Assembly (NCBI RefSeq): GCF_007747215.1
Contig: NZ_CP036273.1
Location: forward strand, 6,804,322 to 6,868,321
Length of the DNA: 64,000 nt
Source: Urbifossiella limnaea
GTDB taxonomy: Bacteria > Planctomycetota > Planctomycetia > Gemmatales > Gemmataceae
Direction: 5' to 3'
The translations under genes and the position numbers were made by a program. A model generated the notes under the pieces. That model saw nothing but the letters and a program-made list of their open reading frames with translations, ran no database searches and was not told the DNA's origin. Shown piece by piece: positions 57,417-64,000 of this stretch; position 1 is the stretch's first letter; the number at the start of each line of letters is the position of its first letter.

Positions 57417-58601
57417 ATGACCCGCCGTCGAATAATTCTGTCCGCCGCCCTGTTCGCGGCCGCTTGCACGGCCTTCGCCCAGGAGCGAAGTGTCGCCCCC
57501 GGGATCAACGACCCGTTCAAGGAACCGGACGTCAAGGGGTTCCAGACCAAGTTCGAGGGCGAGAGCCGCGAGGTCTACGTCGCCCGGGAGAAGGTCGTGG
57601 CCGCGGTCGGGCTCAGGCCGGGGATGGTCGTCGCCGACGTCGGCGCCGGGACCGGCCTGTTCACCCGGCTGTTCGCGAACGCGGTCGGCCCGACCGGGCA
57701 GGTGTTCGCCGTGGACATCGCCCCGAAGTTCCTCGAACACGTCCAGAAGACGAGCCGCGAGGCCGGGCTGCGGAACGTCACCCCGGTGCTGTGCGCGGCC
57801 GACTCGGTGGACCTGCCGCCGGCGTCGGTGGACGTGGCGTTCGTGTGCGACACCTACCACCACTTCGAGTTCCCCGAGCGCACGCTGGCGTCGCTCCACC
57901 GGGCGGTCCGGCCGGGCGGGAAGCTGGTGGTGATCGACTTCGTCCGCGAGCCGGGCAAGAGCACGGACTGGGTGCTCAAGCACGTCCGGGCCGGGCAGGG
58001 CGTGTTCGAGCGGGAGATCGCGTCGGCCGGGTTCGTGAAAGAGGGCGAGGTAAAGGACGTGCTGAAGGAGAACTACCTGGTCGTCTTCACCCGGGCGAAG
58101 GACGCCGCGCCCGCCCCGCCGGGGCGGCCCGCGTCACTCACGCCCGCGATCCCCGGATACGGGGCGGTGGTACCGCTCCCGGGTGCGGCCGAGCCGCCGG
58201 TGAAGGGCACGAAGGTGGTGTTCGACGTGACCGCCGCGGGTAAGGACCCGGCCAAGCCGCCGCCGGGGCTGGAGCGGGCGGCGACGCTGCTCAACCTCGC
58301 CGTCGCGTCCGGGCTGAAGGCGTCCGACCTGGAGGTCGTGATCGTCCTCCACGGGGACGCGGCCGCCGTCGCGCTCACCGATCCGGCGTACCGTGTGGCG
58401 GTCGGCCACCCGCACCCGGCGGAGAAGCTACTGGGGTCGCTGACCGGGAACGGGGTGCGGGTGCTGGTGTGCGGGCAGTCGCTCGCCCGGAAGGGGTACG
58501 ACCCGGCGACCGTCCGGCCGGGCGTGACCGTCGCCGCGTCGGCCGTGACCGCAGTGGTGAACCTCCAGGCCCGCGGGTTCGCCTACGTCCCGGCTCACTG
58601 A
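57417..58601 (+). CDS. Exported SAM methyltransferase fused to a DsrE-like domain
   Basis: 394 aa. Residues 1-20 are a signal peptide (IILSAALFAAACTAFAQE; a Cys at the lipobox position is possible). Residues ~50-230 are a class I methyltransferase: VVADVGAGTGLFTRLFA (motif I), FAVDIAPKFL, DVAFVCDTYHHFEFPE and PGGKLVVIDFVREPG. Residues ~265-394 resemble DsrE/DsrF: VVFDVTAAGKDP, LNLAVASGLKASDLEVVIVLHGDAA and VLVCGQSLARKGYDP, the Cys of which matches the sulfur-carrying position in active DsrE proteins. Export of a SAM-dependent enzyme is unusual, since SAM is cytoplasmic. It converges on and overlaps the anti-sigma gene by 7 bases. Confidence 0.85.
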   Translation: MTRRRIILSAALFAAACTAFAQERSVAPGINDPFKEPDVKGFQTKFEGESREVYVAREKVVAAVGLRPGMVVADVGAGTGLFTRLFANAVGPTGQVFAVDIAPKFLEHVQKTSREAGLRNVTPVLCAADSVDLPPASVDVAFVCDTYHHFEFPERTLASLHRAVRPGGKLVVIDFVREPGKSTDWVLKHVRAGQGVFEREIASAGFVKEGEVKDVLKENYLVVFTRAKDAAPAPPGRPASLTPAIPGYGAVVPLPGAAEPPVKGTKVVFDVTAAGKDPAKPPPGLERAATLLNLAVASGLKASDLEVVIVLHGDAAAVALTDPAYRVAVGHPHPAEKLLGSLTGNGVRVLVCGQSLARKGYDPATVRPGVTVAASAVTAVVNLQARGFAYVPAH

Positions 58602-58846
58602 CCGGCGGCGGGGAACGCCTCGGCCCACTTCGCCCGGAGGGCGTCCCGCATCCGGTCCGAGAACGCCGCCGGCATCGGGTACGGCTCCCCGGCCTTGTAG
58701 AGGCGGATCGTCTTGCGGATGTTGTCCACCACCAGCTGGCACGGGTTGCACCCGGCCAAATGGTCGGCGAACTCGCGGTAGACGGCGAGGGCGTCCTCGG
58801 CGTCCACGTACTCGTTCAGGGCCTTCAGCAGTTCCTCGCAGCTCAT
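58595..58846 (-). CDS. Small zinc-finger anti-sigma factor
   Basis: 83 aa. MSCEELLKALNEYVDAED, then DHLAGCNPCQLVVDNI gives the C-x(n)-H-x3-C-x2-C layout of the ZAS/zf-HC2 domain that binds ECF sigma factors. There is no transmembrane segment, so it is soluble, like redox-sensing RsrA-type members whose Cys cluster releases sigma on oxidation. ATG 58846 lies 14 bases after the ECF stop: translational coupling. Redox sensing is inference. Confidence 0.85.
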   Translation of the reverse strand: MSCEELLKALNEYVDAEDALAVYREFADHLAGCNPCQLVVDNIRKTIRLYKAGEPYPMPAAFSDRMRDALRAKWAEAFPAAGQ

Positions 58847-58860
58847 CGCAGCCCCGCGGG

Positions 58861-59505
58861 TCAGCCGTGGCGGTGGTCGGGCGTCACCCGGGTGGCGGCG
58901 TCGCCGAACGTCCGGGTCAGAATCTCCCGGAGGGCGAGCCGGGCGCGGAGGAGGCGGACCTTCACGTTCGCCTCCGAGATCCCGAGCAGGTCGGCCGCCT
59001 CCCGGACCGAGAACCCCTCGATGTCGCGGAGCACGAACACCGCCCGGTACTTGTCGTCCAGCCCGGCGAGCGCCCGGTCGACGGCCGCCCGCACCTCGTG
59101 CCGCTCGGCCAGGTCGGCCGGGTCGGCCCGCCAGTCGGCGATGAAGTCCGGGTGCGGAACCTCGGCGTAGCCCTCGTCCGAACCCGCCGGGTCGGTCAGC
59201 GGGACGGTCGGCAGCCCCCGCCGCTTGCGGAGGTGCTTGAGCGCGTGGTTGGCCGCGATCCGCAGCACCCACCCGGCGACGGCCGACTCGCCGCGGAACT
59301 CCTTCAGGTGCTCGACCAGGCTGAGGAACGTCTGCTGGGCCACGTCCTCGGCGTCGTGCGGCTCCCCGAGCATCCGGTAGGCGAGCCCGTACACCCGGTT
59401 CTGGAGCCGGCCGACGAGGGCCTCGAACGCGGCGAAATCCCCACCCCGGGCCTTCAGCAGCAGGGGCAGGTCGGGGTCGTCGGGACGAGCCGGCGGGTCG
59501 GTCAT
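58861..59505 (-). CDS. ECF RNA polymerase sigma factor
   Basis: 214 aa. Region 2: FEALVGRLQNRVYGLAYRML and DAEDVAQQTFLSLVEHL; then WVLRIAANHALKHLRKRR. Region 4: LDDKYRAVFVLRDIEGFSV, then EAADLLGISEANVKVRLLRA. The linker (about 100-145) is longer than in minimal ECFs. ATG 59505 was chosen over an upstream frame because region 2 begins normally after ~25 residues. It is followed by the anti-sigma gene and preceded by the rhodanese gene on the same strand. Confidence 0.93.
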   Translation of the reverse strand: MTDPPARPDDPDLPLLLKARGGDFAAFEALVGRLQNRVYGLAYRMLGEPHDAEDVAQQTFLSLVEHLKEFRGESAVAGWVLRIAANHALKHLRKRRGLPTVPLTDPAGSDEGYAEVPHPDFIADWRADPADLAERHEVRAAVDRALAGLDDKYRAVFVLRDIEGFSVREAADLLGISEANVKVRLLRARLALREILTRTFGDAATRVTPDHRHG

Positions 59506-59563
59506 CGGCGGGGCCGGGTGGGCGGGGCGGTGGGATACCACCCCGCGGTAGATTACGGCCGCG

Positions 59564-59956
59564 TCACTTCGCCGGCTCGAACCCGGCCTTCACCAGCCCG
59601 TCGAACCCGTCCCGCAGGGGGCGGACGTCGTACCCCTTCCCCTTCAACAGGTCGGCCGCGGCCAGGCACCGCCGGCCGGACGCACAGTGGAGGTAGACGA
59701 TCGAGCCGGGCGGGAGGGTGGCCCGGAGCTTCTCGGCCGGCACGCCCGCCTTGAGGTTCGACAGGGCGACGTGCTTGGCCCCCTTCAGGTGCCCGTCGCC
59801 CCACTCGCCGGCCTCCCGCACGTCCACGATCACCGCCTTCCCGGCCGTCACGTTCGTCTTCACCACGTCCAGGCTGTCGGTCGTGTGGTCGGCGGCCCAC
59901 AGCACCCCGCCGAACGCGAACGCCGCCAGAACCCCCGCGCACGCCAGTCGCTTCAT
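59564..59956 (-). CDS. Periplasmic rhodanese (sulfurtransferase)
   Basis: 130 aa. Signal peptide residues 1-21 (CAGVLAAFAFGGVLWAAD). A single rhodanese domain: VIVDVREAGEWGDGHLKGA and the active-site loop LHCASGRRCLAAAD, where the Cys carries the persulfide and the S-G-R-R sequence shapes the loop. It would move sulfane sulfur to a thiol acceptor or cyanide in the periplasm. First gene of the rhodanese-ECF-anti-sigma set; 58 bases to the ECF gene. Confidence 0.92.
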   Translation of the reverse strand: MKRLACAGVLAAFAFGGVLWAADHTTDSLDVVKTNVTAGKAVIVDVREAGEWGDGHLKGAKHVALSNLKAGVPAEKLRATLPPGSIVYLHCASGRRCLAAADLLKGKGYDVRPLRDGFDGLVKAGFEPAK

Positions 59957-60163
59957 CGCCCAACCCCTCCGTGTGACGGAACCCCACCCGCCCGGCGGGC
60001 GGTCCTGGGTATGATCCGCGGCCTCCCCGAGAGGTTACACGGAATTATTCCGGGCGGCGGCGCGTAACTTTCCGCGCCGCCGCGGATCGAACCTTCAGAC
60101 GAACCCGTTCCGGCTACGCCACCATCCCGCCGCCGTGCCGAACCCGCGTAGGAGACCCCGGCC
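59957..60163. promoter_or_regulatory. Divergent regulatory region with operator-like dyad
   Basis: 207 bases between the rhodanese start (minus strand) and the plus-strand efflux operon. Contains CGGAAT-T-ATTCCG (60040-60052), a 6-bp dyad with one central base, in the only AT-rich spot. GGAACC-like elements occur on the plus strand at 59978-59984 and CGAACC near 60088; either could be an ECF -35, but no -10 is clear. Confidence 0.45.
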
Positions 60164-60358
60164 GTGTCGAACCCGAACCTCACCTGCTCCGTCACCCCGC
60201 CCCGCGACGCCCGCCGCCTCGCCCACCGCCGCCTCTGCGTCGCCGCCGGGGGGCTCGCCGTGCTCGGGGCCGTCCTCGCGATCGCCGTAGCCCCGGCGCT
60301 TGCGGTCCTGTCCGCGGCCGGCGGGTTGGCCCTGCTCCTGATCCCCGACCGCACCTGA
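60164..60358 (+). CDS. 64-aa membrane protein, first gene of efflux operon
   Basis: GTG 60164 with AGGAG (60150-60154) nine bases upstream. N-terminal ~20 residues are polar and contain one Cys; then LCVAAGGLAVLGAVLAIAV and LAVLSAAGGLALLLI form two close membrane segments. Similar two-span small proteins (DUF2892/YgaP membrane part) often accompany rhodaneses, but I cannot confirm this one belongs. The next start is 27 bases after its stop. Confidence 0.65.
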   Translation: MSNPNLTCSVTPPRDARRLAHRRLCVAAGGLAVLGAVLAIAVAPALAVLSAAGGLALLLIPDRT

Positions 60359-60384
60359 TGCCGACTTCCCACCCGGAGACGCAC

Positions 60385-60960
60385 ATGAGCGCCCGACGAT
60401 GCTTCGCAGCCCTCCTGGCCCTCGCCGCCGGGGTGCTGATGGCGACCGCCGGCGGGCCGGCCGCCGCCCAGCCGCCCGGCAAGGGACCGCCTGCCGGGAA
60501 GGGCCCGCAGGCGGGCAAGGGGAAGGCCGGCGACCCGGCCTTCGCCGCCGACCGCGACGGGTTCCACTACCTGCTCGAACACCGCAAGGACATCCGCCGG
60601 ACCGTCAAGGACGTCAACGGCGGGGTCGTGACGCTCACCGAGTCGGACGACCCGGCCGTCGCCGGCAAGATCCGCGAGCACGTGTCCGCGATGCACGCGC
60701 GGGTGAAGACCGGGAACGGCGTCCACTACCGCGACCCGCTGTTCGCCGAGATCTTCCGGCATTACGACAAGATCACGATGACGGTCGAGCGGACCCCGAA
60801 GGGGGCGAAGGTGACCGAGACCTCGGCCGACCCGTACGTCGCCAAGCTGATCCAGGCGCACGCCCTGGTCGTGACGAAGTTCATCGAGAACGGCCACGCC
60901 GAGGTGATGAAGAACCACCCGCTGCCCGCCGCCCCGGCTCCGGCACGGAAGCAGCCGTAG
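60385..60960 (+). CDS. Exported protein of two 60-residue histidine repeats
   Basis: 191 aa. Signal peptide to about residue 29, a Gly/Lys/Pro linker (30-50), then two tandem copies in exact 60-residue register with no gaps: residues 60-110 and 120-170. Identities include Phe60/120, His66/126, Ile70/130, Thr73/133, Val74/134, Gly80/140, Ser87/147, Asp89/149, Pro90/150, Val92/152, Ala93/153, Ile96/156, His99/159 and Gly110/170. Paired His suggest a metal or haem site in each half. I recognise no named family. ATG 60385 has GGAG 7 bases upstream; ATG 60358 overlaps the previous stop but lacks one. Confidence 0.8.
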   Translation: MSARRCFAALLALAAGVLMATAGGPAAAQPPGKGPPAGKGPQAGKGKAGDPAFAADRDGFHYLLEHRKDIRRTVKDVNGGVVTLTESDDPAVAGKIREHVSAMHARVKTGNGVHYRDPLFAEIFRHYDKITMTVERTPKGAKVTETSADPYVAKLIQAHALVVTKFIENGHAEVMKNHPLPAAPAPARKQP

Positions 60961-60972
60961 GAGGTGCCGCAC

Positions 60973-61119
60973 GTGTCCGAACAACCGACCGGCCCCGCCC
61001 CGAGCGGGGCTTCCCCAACCGCGAGTCGAGCCGTGGAGCTTCTCGTTCTGCTCGGTATCTTCGTGCTCTGGGTCGTCCTCCAGGTCTGGGTGCTGCCGAA
61101 GGCCGGCGTGCCCACCTGA
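60973..61119 (+). CDS. 48-aa single-span membrane protein
   Basis: GTG 60973 has a near-perfect GGAGGTG (60960-60966) seven bases upstream, overlapping the previous stop. Polar N terminus (SEQPTGPAPSGASPTASRAV), one transmembrane helix (LLVLLGIFVLWVVLQVWVL) and a short PKAGVPT tail. Too small for many gene finders. Placement between the repeat protein and the adaptor suggests a small accessory subunit of the pump. Confidence 0.7.
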   Translation: MSEQPTGPAPSGASPTASRAVELLVLLGIFVLWVVLQVWVLPKAGVPT

Positions 61120-61202: not shown

Positions 61203-62336
61203 GTGACCATCCCACACCCCGCGCCGACGCCCCCGCCCGCGGCCGGGCGGTGGCGGTCCACGCTCGGCTCACTCGCCTCGGCCGCCGCCGGGGTGGCCGG
61301 GCTCGTCCTGTTCCTCGCCTGGATGGGCGGGGCGTTTCGGGACAAGGTCCGGCCCGGCGAGGTGCCCGCGCCCCGGGCCTCGGCCGCCGGCCGCACGCTC
61401 GTCGCCGCCGAGCGGGTGACCGAGCCGCAGACCGAGGCGGCCGTCGGCAGCGTCCAGCCGAAGAAGCGGACGGAGGTGGCGAGCCAGCTCCTCGCCGGGG
61501 TGCTGGAGGTGAAGGCCCGCCCCGGCGACCGGGTCCAGACCGGCGCCCCCCTCGTCACGCTCGACGACCGCGAGCTGGCCGCCCAGCAGCGGGAGGCGCT
61601 GGCCGCCCTGACGGCCGCCGACGCGGACCTGGTGACCCGCCGGGCCGACTTCGAGCGGGCGAAAAAGGCGCGGGCGAGCGGGGCCGTCAGTGACGACGAG
61701 TTCGGCAAGGTCGAGGGCGCGTTCCGGGTGGCCGAGGCCCAGGCCGGGCGGGGGCGGGAGGTGATCGCCCGGCTGGCCGTCCAGCTCACCTACACGAAGC
61801 TCACCGCGTCCGGGCCCGGGCTGGTTTCTGAACGGCTCGTCGAGCCGGGCGACCTGGCCTCCCCGGGGAAAACCTTGCTCGTGATCTACGACCCGGCCGA
61901 CCTCGAACTCCACGCCAACATCCCCGAGAGTTTGGCCAAGGCGGTCGCCGTCGGGCAGTCGCTACCCGTCTACGTCCAGGCTCCCGACCTTCACGTCATC
62001 GGCACCGTCCGCGAGGTCGTGCCCCTCGCCCAGCAGGCGACCCGGTCGGTCCTCGTCAAGCTGACCCTTCCGCCACCCCCGGCCGGCAAGACGCTCCTCC
62101 CCGGGATGTTCGGCCGGGTCGAAATCGGGACCGGGACCGCCGACCGGCTGTGGGTGCCGTCGGCGGCGGTGCGCCGGATCGGGCAACTCGACCTGGTCGA
62201 GGTCGCCGGGGCGGACGGCACCCTCGGCCGCCGCTTTGTCCGCGTCGGCCAGGAGCGGAAGCGGGGCGGGGTGGACGCGACCGAAATCCTCTCCGGCCTG
62301 ACCGCGGGCGACCGGGTCGCGCTCCCTTCCAAGTAA
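61203..62336 (+). CDS. RND efflux periplasmic adaptor (second system)
   Basis: 377 aa from GTG 61203 (GAGAGGA ~6 bases upstream). An uncleaved anchor (SAAAGVAGLVLFLAWMGGAF) rather than a lipobox. Biotinyl-lipoyl halves: AGVLEVKARPGDRVQTGAPL and LTASGPGLVSERLVEPGDLA; between them a short coiled coil (about 130-190). Beta-barrel: DLELHANIPESLAKAVAVGQ. Followed 18 bases on by the pump. It is not closely similar to the adaptor at 13221. Confidence 0.9.
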   Translation: MTIPHPAPTPPPAAGRWRSTLGSLASAAAGVAGLVLFLAWMGGAFRDKVRPGEVPAPRASAAGRTLVAAERVTEPQTEAAVGSVQPKKRTEVASQLLAGVLEVKARPGDRVQTGAPLVTLDDRELAAQQREALAALTAADADLVTRRADFERAKKARASGAVSDDEFGKVEGAFRVAEAQAGRGREVIARLAVQLTYTKLTASGPGLVSERLVEPGDLASPGKTLLVIYDPADLELHANIPESLAKAVAVGQSLPVYVQAPDLHVIGTVREVVPLAQQATRSVLVKLTLPPPPAGKTLLPGMFGRVEIGTGTADRLWVPSAAVRRIGQLDLVEVAGADGTLGRRFVRVGQERKRGGVDATEILSGLTAGDRVALPSK

Positions 62337-62354: not shown

Positions 62355-64000
62355 ATGAGCACCGACCGCACCGACGGCGGGTTCGTCTCCCGGGTGGTCG
62401 AGGCGTTCCTCACCGGAAACCTGTCCGTCCTCCTCGTCCTGGTCATGCTGGCCGGCGGCGTCGCCGCCCTCGCGCTGACCCCGCGGGAGGAGGAGCCCCA
62501 GATCGTCGTCCCGATGGCGGACGTGTTCGTCCGCATGCCCGGGGCCAGCGCCGAGGAGGTCGAGCAGCTCGTCTCGTCCAAGCTGGAGCGGCTCCTCTAC
62601 CAGATCGACGGGGTCGAGTACGTGTACTCGATGTCCCGCCCCGGCGAGGCCGTCGTGACCGTCCGGTTCCACGTCGGGGAGAGCCGCGAGGGGTCGCTGG
62701 TCAAGCTGCACAACAAGATCATGATGCACACCGACGTGGTCCCGCCCGGGGTTACGGGGTGGGTGGTCAAGCCGGTCGAGATCGACGACGTGCCGTTCGT
62801 CGCCGTCACCCTGTGGGGGAAGACGGCCGACGACTTCGCCCTGCGGCGGGTGGCCGAGCAGGTCGAGGTCGCGCTCCAGGGCGTGCCCGACACCGGCCGG
62901 ACCGAGGTGGTCGGCGGCCGCCGGCGGCAGCTGCGGATCACGCTCGACCCGGAGCGGATGGCCTCCCGCCAGGTCACCCCGCTGGACGTGGACCGCGTCC
63001 TCCGCGGGGCGAACGTCGGCCTCCGGGCCGGCGAGCTGCGGGCCGGTAGCCGGGAGGTCGCGGTGGACAGCGGCCCGTACCTCCAGTCGGCCCGCGAGCT
63101 GGAAACGCTCGTCGTCGGGGTGTTCGCCGGGAAGCCGGTCTACCTCAAGGAGGTGGCCGAGGTGGCCGACGGCCCGGAGGAGCCGACCGGGTACACCCGC
63201 ATCGCGTTCGGCCCCGGCGCCGCCCGCGCCCCGCCCGAGGCCGCGACCGGGTCCGACTTCCCGGCGGTCACCGTCGGCGTCGCCCGGCGGAAGGGGAGCA
63301 ACGCCGTCGCCGTCGCCCACGCGATCGAGGCCCGGCTGGCCGAACTGCGGGCGACGGTCATCCCGCACGACGTCGAGGCCCGCGTCACCCGGAACTACGG
63401 CGAGACGGCCGACGAGAAGGTGAGCGAGCTGGTCCGCGAACTCGGGCTGGCGATCGTCATCGTCGCGGCCCTCATCATGTACGCCCTCGGCTGGCGCGAG
63501 GCGGTCATCGTCGTCACCGCGGTGCCGCTCACGTTCGCCCTCACGCTGCTCGTCAACTACCTGGCCGGGTACTCGATCAACCGGGTCACCCTGTTCGCCC
63601 TGATCCTCGCTCTCGGGCTGGTGGTGGACGACCCGATCGTGGACGTGGAGAACATCTTCCGCCACTTCGGGCTCCGGCGGAAGCCGCCGCGCGAGGCCGT
63701 GCTGGAGGCGGTCAACGAGGTCCGCCCGCCGATCATCGTGGCCACCCTGGTGGTGATGGTGTCGTTCCTCCCGATGCTGTTCATCACCGGGATGATGGGG
63801 CCGTACATGCGGCCGATGGCGCTGAACGTCCCGGTCGCCATGCTGATGTCGATGGTGGTGGCGTTCACCGTCACCCCGTGGCTCAGTTACCACGTCCTGA
63901 AGGGCGTGTACGGCAAGGGCGGGCACGAGCCGACCGACCCGCACCGCACGCTCACCTACCGCGCCTACCGCGCCGTGCTCACCCCGTTCCTGAACTCCCG
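62355..64000 (+). CDS. RND efflux permease, N-terminal 548 residues
   Basis: Runs off the window. TM1 (LSVLLVLVMLAGGVAALAL) is followed by REEEPQIVVPMADVFVRMPGAS, a start typical of RND pumps that swap the R-R-P motif of AcrB. Porter domains follow, then LALGLVVDDPIVDVENIF in TM4 with the two proton-relay Asp residues. Sequence near the end (MRPMALNVPVAMLMSMVVAF) is TM5-6. The pattern resembles pumps annotated as hydrophobe/heavy-metal or acriflavin-like; the substrate cannot be assigned. Confidence 0.92.
   Translation, partial: MSTDRTDGGFVSRVVEAFLTGNLSVLLVLVMLAGGVAALALTPREEEPQIVVPMADVFVRMPGASAEEVEQLVSSKLERLLYQIDGVEYVYSMSRPGEAVVTVRFHVGESREGSLVKLHNKIMMHTDVVPPGVTGWVVKPVEIDDVPFVAVTLWGKTADDFALRRVAEQVEVALQGVPDTGRTEVVGGRRRQLRITLDPERMASRQVTPLDVDRVLRGANVGLRAGELRAGSREVAVDSGPYLQSARELETLVVGVFAGKPVYLKEVAEVADGPEEPTGYTRIAFGPGAARAPPEAATGSDFPAVTVGVARRKGSNAVAVAHAIEARLAELRATVIPHDVEARVTRNYGETADEKVSELVRELGLAIVIVAALIMYALGWREAVIVVTAVPLTFALTLLVNYLAGYSINRVTLFALILALGLVVDDPIVDVENIFRHFGLRRKPPREAVLEAVNEVRPPIIVATLVVMVSFLPMLFITGMMGPYMRPMALNVPVAMLMSMVVAFTVTPWLSYHVLKGVYGKGGHEPTDPHRTLTYRAYRAVLTPFLNS

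Follow-up and report, generated by a model that had tools for sequence, protein, structure and literature searches.

A putatively exported twin-repeat protein heading an efflux gene run in Urbifossiella limnaea, with a candidate soft-metal site and relatives fused to sulfur carriers

Sulfide-detoxifying operons of the cst/bigR kind contain a persulfide dioxygenase-sulfurtransferase (CstB or Blh) together with SQR, TauE, YeeE and an ArsR-type sensor. Among systems that handle metals, CusF, CopC/PcoC and PcoE are exported copper-binding accessory proteins, and the folds of CusF and CopC are beta-barrels. BigR and Blh have been described as parts of the bigR sulfide-detoxification operon (PMC5823870). 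Here, we compare with these systems a locus of the planctomycete Urbifossiella limnaea and its relatives in other bacteria.

The gene and its surroundings

The window, i.e. the whole analysed stretch of 64,000 nucleotides (NZ_CP036273.1, positions 6,804,322 to 6,868,321), encodes near its end a twin-repeat protein of 191 residues, probably exported, which we call FAM (60385..60960, plus strand). The gene is supported by its open reading frame, a GGAG site and a family of relatives. The frame extends from an ATG at 60385 to 60957 and is closed by a TAG stop (60958-60960), with GGAG at 60375-60378, six bases ahead of the start; an alternative in-frame ATG at 60358 is the less likely start. Judged by eye, the N-terminus MSARRCFAALLALAAGVLMATAGGPAAAQP is a Sec-type signal sequence, and mycobacterial members bear a TAT-like RR motif; from this signal-like N-terminus we infer a periplasmic location. 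A low-complexity linker, QPPGKGPPAGKGPQAGKGKAG (60469..60531, plus strand), was predicted with low confidence by AlphaFold2. In many relatives its counterpart is rich in Met, Cys or GKGPM, and the window linker looks like a Met-free version of the GKGPM-type repeat of L033.

In the window, FAM heads a run of genes for an efflux periplasmic adaptor (61203..62336, plus strand; RND_mfp, TIGR01730, over its cut-off) and an RND pump (ACR_tran; 62355..64000, plus strand, cut by the window end). As had been described, it lies in this efflux gene run between two tiny membrane proteins, a hydrophobic ORF of 64 residues upstream (60164..60358, plus strand) and a single-span ORF of 48 residues downstream (60973..61119, plus strand). 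The upstream ORF, when tested against the YgaP transmembrane family, gave no match; short hydrophobic ORFs occupy the same position in L027 and L029. In L043 and L089, YgaP-like_TM proteins are encoded nearby. The downstream ORF had no Pfam match, and a comparable ORF of 52 residues takes its place in L052. The adjacent pump cannot be clearly assigned to the heavy-metal type; its relative in L029 scored better with multidrug models, below every cut-off.

The minus strand carries genes for an exported rhodanese (59564..59956; PF00581, E=2.6e-13), an ECF sigma factor (58861..59541; Sigma70_r2 and r4_2) and a zinc-finger anti-sigma-like protein (58595..58846; zf-HC2, at its cut-off). Encoded separately from FAM, 1.8 kb upstream, is a class-I methyltransferase whose N-terminus is signal-like and which is joined to DsrE (57417..58601, plus strand; Pfam support for both domains). 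Apart from this protein and the rhodanese, no SQR, TauE or persulfide dioxygenase was found beside FAM in the window. Between the divergent rhodanese gene and the 64-residue ORF, we also noted a palindrome-like sequence, CGGAATTATTCCG, with GTTAC...GTAAC flanks (60030-60075), possibly a regulatory site.

Internal duplication and predicted fold

Residues 60-110 (repeat 1; 60562..60714, plus strand) and 120-170 (repeat 2; 60742..60894, plus strand) of FAM align without gaps at an offset of 60, with identities at 14 of 51 positions, and every other offset from 40 to 79 gave at most seven identities in the self-comparison. When FAM was shuffled 5000 times with its composition preserved, the best score at any offset was 13 identities, and 14 were never reached (0/5000). 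Profile-profile comparison of one half against the other yielded E=7.4e-13 with 66 sequences and 3.5e-14 with 21 diverse sequences. Furthermore, BLAST matched the second half of the window FAM to the first half of the distant relatives L096, L102, L106 and L107. On these sequence comparisons we regard the duplication as genuine and, because of the profile E values, as ancient. The two homologous units comprise about 53 residues each. The preliminary description had called the duplication exact, which holds for the spacing of precisely 60 residues and does not hold for the sequence, only 26% identical. Its other details were recovered, namely the 14 gap-free identities, the D-P-x-V-A-x-x-I-x-x-H segment in both copies and two aligned histidines per copy (H66/H126 and H99/H159). 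Invariant positions are R72, G80, T85, H99 and M103 in repeat 1 and F124, G140, H159 and G170 in repeat 2, where E145 is nearly invariant.

For the window FAM aligned with 65 relatives, AlphaFold2 reached a pLDDT near 98 across residues 51-180, with low values for signal and linker, and the trimmed domain scored a pLDDT of 97.1 and a pTM of 0.89. The predicted elements are a helix (51-65), two strands (71-77 and 80-86) and a helix (90-109) in the first half, and the same order in the second (118-125, 131-137, 140-146 and 150-169). FAM is therefore predicted to consist of two alpha-beta-beta-alpha units, the folds of the two halves being alike; differing folds would have spoken against the preliminary description. 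Foldseek searches with the full model and the trimmed domain against the PDB, and also against viral models, returned no match at E<=0.001. In a second look with VIA-align, the closest structure was the C-terminal domain of ArgR (Z 5.9, rmsd 3.1, 84 residues); this was not taken as kinship, as the Z lies within the tool's uninformative range and identity was 5%. A new fold does not follow from the lack of a structural match and is not proven.

Relatives, fusions and neighbourhoods

The FAM domain had no Pfam, NCBIfam or PDB-sequence match (phmmer and profile searches of PDB sequences), and no match above cut-off or consistent match to Pfam or NCBIfam was obtained among 20 members of A1 or the distant members tried. 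A match to Pfam PsbQ (E 0.12) and other weak Pfam and NCBIfam matches, scattered and forming no consistent family, were dismissed as chance, as were PDB-sequence matches to procardosin, SNAP-25 and trehalose-phosphatase. Relatives were present in about 19 of the 102 genomes of the order; a twentieth genome, G013, matched with E 3e-4 over residues 4-76, probably through low-complexity similarity, which makes 19 safer than 20. The genome collection contained 72 FAM loci, mostly from Planctomycetota, with one each from Acidobacteriota and Armatimonadota (Chthonomonadaceae) and one Mycobacterium record. Within the mycobacterial family, four of 201 genomes have FAM, and it is also carried by 12 plasmids from Mycobacterium, Mycolicibacterium, Aminobacter, Neotabrizicola, Acidiphilium and Acidithiobacillus. 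The record JASGCF010000098.1 (L097), titled Limnohabitans sp., was not treated as betaproteobacterial: its neighbours match those of L085-L087 and the genome groups with planctomycetes, so it is probably a misnamed MAG. The family spans Planctomycetota, Mycobacteriaceae, Alphaproteobacteria and Acidithiobacillia, and Acidobacteriota and Armatimonadota in single genomes. FAM is a genuine, widely spread family without a name in the databases searched; it is carried on resistance plasmids and combines a confident predicted fold with the absence of a significant PDB match. In an Isosphaera MAG (L095:5941-6144), FAM is reduced to an ORF of 67 residues that opens like the thioredoxin encoded next to it and closes with repeat 2 of FAM; it looks like the product of a deletion that fused these two genes.

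In 21 loci, DsrE is fused to FAM. Six of these, all planctomycete (L042, L050, L054, L061, L072 and L076), encode methyltransferase, FAM and DsrE in this order within one protein, and the fifteen others FAM and DsrE only; L080 encodes a methyltransferase-FAM fusion. A strong match to the methyltransferase, set at 250 bits, was obtained in 13 of 20 FAM-positive genomes, the doubtful one included, versus 24 of 82 other genomes of the order; overall, the strong form of the exported methyltransferase occurs in about 37 of the 102. An exported SAM-dependent enzyme is odd, since SAM is cytoplasmic. The fusions suggest an unexplained exported enzyme combining methyltransferase and sulfur carrier, and they link metal handling with sulfide detoxification, two stresses of coupled chemistry. 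Our literature search found no paper on DsrE, methyltransferase, TauE and rhodanese together in planctomycetes. On a Mycobacterium chimaera plasmid (L099:5535-6802, L189), a membrane methyltransferase of PEMT/ICMT type and a class-I methyltransferase of cytoplasmic type precede FAM; methyltransferases therefore accompany FAM in actinobacteria as well. In seven loci (L038, L041, L044, L051, L055, L058 and L060), FAM is followed by a region of about 200 residues with a conserved AHE(T/A/S)LE(P/V)IR segment. This region is a second unnamed domain, which had no Pfam match in L044.

We then compared the neighbours of FAM in 54 loci with 40 regions taken as controls from five genomes of planctomycetes; as FAM loci are related to each other and the queries were drawn from them, the enrichments that follow are indicative only. 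The rhodanese/MBL-rhodanese/flavin-oxidoreductase group was found at 27/54 FAM loci versus 2/40 controls, DsrE at 21/54, TauE at 14/54 and SQR at 11/54 (0/40 each). Of the efflux and regulatory genes, the HlyD adaptor occurred at 19/54 (1/40), RND at 13/54 (2/40), ECF sigma at 14/54 (2/40) and the zinc-finger anti-sigma at 12/54 (0/40). In Gemmataceae, the window included, the order is zinc-finger anti-sigma, ECF sigma, rhodanese or thioredoxin, FAM, adaptor and RND. In L050 it is ArsR, MBL-rhodanese, TauE, SQR (type III SQR-like), methyltransferase-FAM-DsrE and a cytochrome c of SoxA/TsdA type.

Metal genes are clear at most mycobacterial and proteobacterial loci; in planctomycetes, what accompanies FAM is limited to RND pumps, which are divergent, and sulfur genes. 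In Mycobacterium simulans, a P-type ATPase gene overlaps that of FAM, and PpoB2, a 'copper chaperone', is nearby. The Acidithiobacillus region contains merA and a CusA/CzcA-like RND pump, Mycolicibacterium plasmids have genes for a P-type ATPase, ArsR and a cadmium transporter near FAM, and ars genes occur in Neotabrizicola and M. lentiflavum. No clear metal gene was seen in the neighbourhoods of Aminobacter and pACRY08. A multicopper oxidase is encoded nearby in L053.

Candidate site, function and comparison with known systems

Two alignments, one of 66 mostly planctomycete sequences and a diverse one of 21, cover FAM from Planctomycetota to mycobacteria and proteobacteria. H99, M103 and H159 are invariant in both (66/66 and 21/21). 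Of the two His pairs named in the preliminary description, only H99/H159 proved to be conserved: H66 is His in 19/66 sequences and H126 in 35/66, with Asn as the usual replacement, and N or R in relatives. Position 178, where the alignment is less secure as it lies outside the repeats, is His in 65/66 of the mostly planctomycete sequences and Met in 10/21 of the diverse set, the planctomycete members having His and those from mycobacteria and proteobacteria Met. Exchange of His for Met is typical of soft-metal ligands. H99 and M103 lie four residues apart on the same helix and H159 on the equivalent helix of repeat 2, where the counterpart of M103 is V163. This asymmetry makes a single composite candidate site more likely than two equal ones. 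From the pseudo-symmetry of the model, we infer that helices 90-109 and 150-169 would bring H99, M103 and H159 together.

The tails beside the domain differ between groups. Met-rich tails, e.g. GGMMGGMMGSNMSHMDMQGMM, are present in mycobacterial, alphaproteobacterial and acidophile members, in the planctomycetes L070 and L093 and in the Chthonomonadaceae member (L089), and Cys-rich tails in L066, L077 and L078. On average, Met made up 13% of the tails in the non-planctomycete set versus 3% in planctomycetes.

The explanation that we tentatively favour, while holding it at somewhat below an even chance, is that FAM is an exported accessory protein binding a soft metal in modules against sulfur and metal stress. 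It draws on the invariant His and Met residues, the His/Met exchange at 178, the Met- and Cys-rich tails and the metal-related neighbours. According to this model, the two repeats would form one pseudo-symmetric periplasmic domain, in which one long helix contributes H99 and M103, and its equivalent H159, to a single soft-metal site, most likely Cu(I)-like, probably joined by the His or Met at 178. FAM would buffer or chaperone metal within envelope modules against reactive sulfur and toxic soft metals, protecting or serving sulfur carriers and efflux pumps. Its partners in planctomycetes would be the DsrE and rhodanese sulfur carriers; in the window it might serve the adjacent adaptor and RND pump under control of the ECF sigma/zinc-finger pair. 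The analysis documents the duplication, the predicted fold, the conservation, the fusions and the neighbourhoods; export, metal binding itself, the identity of the metal, the partners, hand-over to the pump and regulation are all presumed here. Several points count against a soft metal: the window FAM has neither a Met- nor a Cys-rich tail, planctomycete neighbourhoods point to sulfur more than to metal, the adjacent pump has no clear heavy-metal assignment, the invariant residues could be structural, the alignment at 178 is less secure, and Aminobacter and pACRY08 offer no clear metal gene. Of the metal, haem or thiol-binding protein with two symmetrical sites that had been proposed, metal binding is thus retained in part, the symmetrical form being at odds with M103 opposite V163.

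The main rival, which we consider unlikely but well short of negligible, assumes that FAM handles sulfur with no metal involved, by binding or positioning persulfide or sulfide, or by docking DsrE and rhodanese carriers with the exported methyltransferase. The link to sulfur, and with it part of the proposed thiol connection, follows from the fusions to DsrE and methyltransferase and from the enrichment of rhodanese, DsrE, TauE and SQR, and the gene order of L050 resembles the bigR (PMC5823870) and cst sulfide operons. However, no cysteine is conserved in the FAM domain, relatives from mycobacteria and acidophiles with the same His and Met residues lie mostly in metal-resistance regions without a DsrE fusion, and in the genome of U. 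limnaea itself an SQR query was unmatched and an MBL-rhodanese query matched in its rhodanese part only. More doubtful still is a purely structural role of the conserved residues, with FAM as a scaffold or adaptor for efflux or methyltransferase complexes. They could be structural, and R72, G80, T85, F124, G140 and G170 look so; the His/Met exchange at 178 would nevertheless be unusual for scaffold residues, as would a pair that is symmetric except that Met103 faces Val163. Haem binding is a lesser rival and quite improbable: H99 and H159 would be axial ligands of a b-type haem, or of a haem sensor, at the pseudo-twofold axis. Two symmetry-equivalent invariant histidines and a methionine in helices are compatible with it, as are Tll0287-like proteins near FAM in 6/54 loci, but Met- and Cys-rich tails and metal-efflux neighbours better suit free metal ions, and we noticed no genes for haem transport or biosynthesis nearby. 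On the boldest reading, the fold of FAM would be new and the protein would found a class of its own among envelope proteins, one for metal and sulfur, with one metal held by the duplicated unit at the pseudo-twofold axis and, in planctomycetes, coupled to exported methyltransferase and DsrE in one polypeptide. We give this little credence; if true, the polypeptide would be an enzyme for methyl/sulfur/metal detoxification that acts outside the cytoplasm.

As for known systems, the ArgR/AhrC C-terminal domain aligns best in structure with FAM, yet function and compartment differ. DsrE/DsrF-like sulfur carriers (PF02635) are the fusion partners in the 21 loci mentioned above, neither the DsrE domain nor its cysteine being present in FAM itself. 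Many planctomycete FAM loci share with cst/bigR operons an ArsR-family regulator, rhodanese, MBL-rhodanese, TauE, SQR and YeeE; they differ by FAM and the exported methyltransferase-DsrE protein, neither of which is known from such operons, and the window locus differs further in having rhodanese and DsrE with no adjoining SQR, TauE or MBL protein. From CusF and CopC, FAM is set apart by its predicted alpha/beta twin repeat in place of a beta-barrel and by the lack of a sequence match to solved members (phmmer and profile search of PDB sequences). Like CusF, CopC/PcoC and PcoE, it is small, putatively exported, equipped with His and Met residues and, at some loci, encoded beside RND or P-type ATPase efflux genes.
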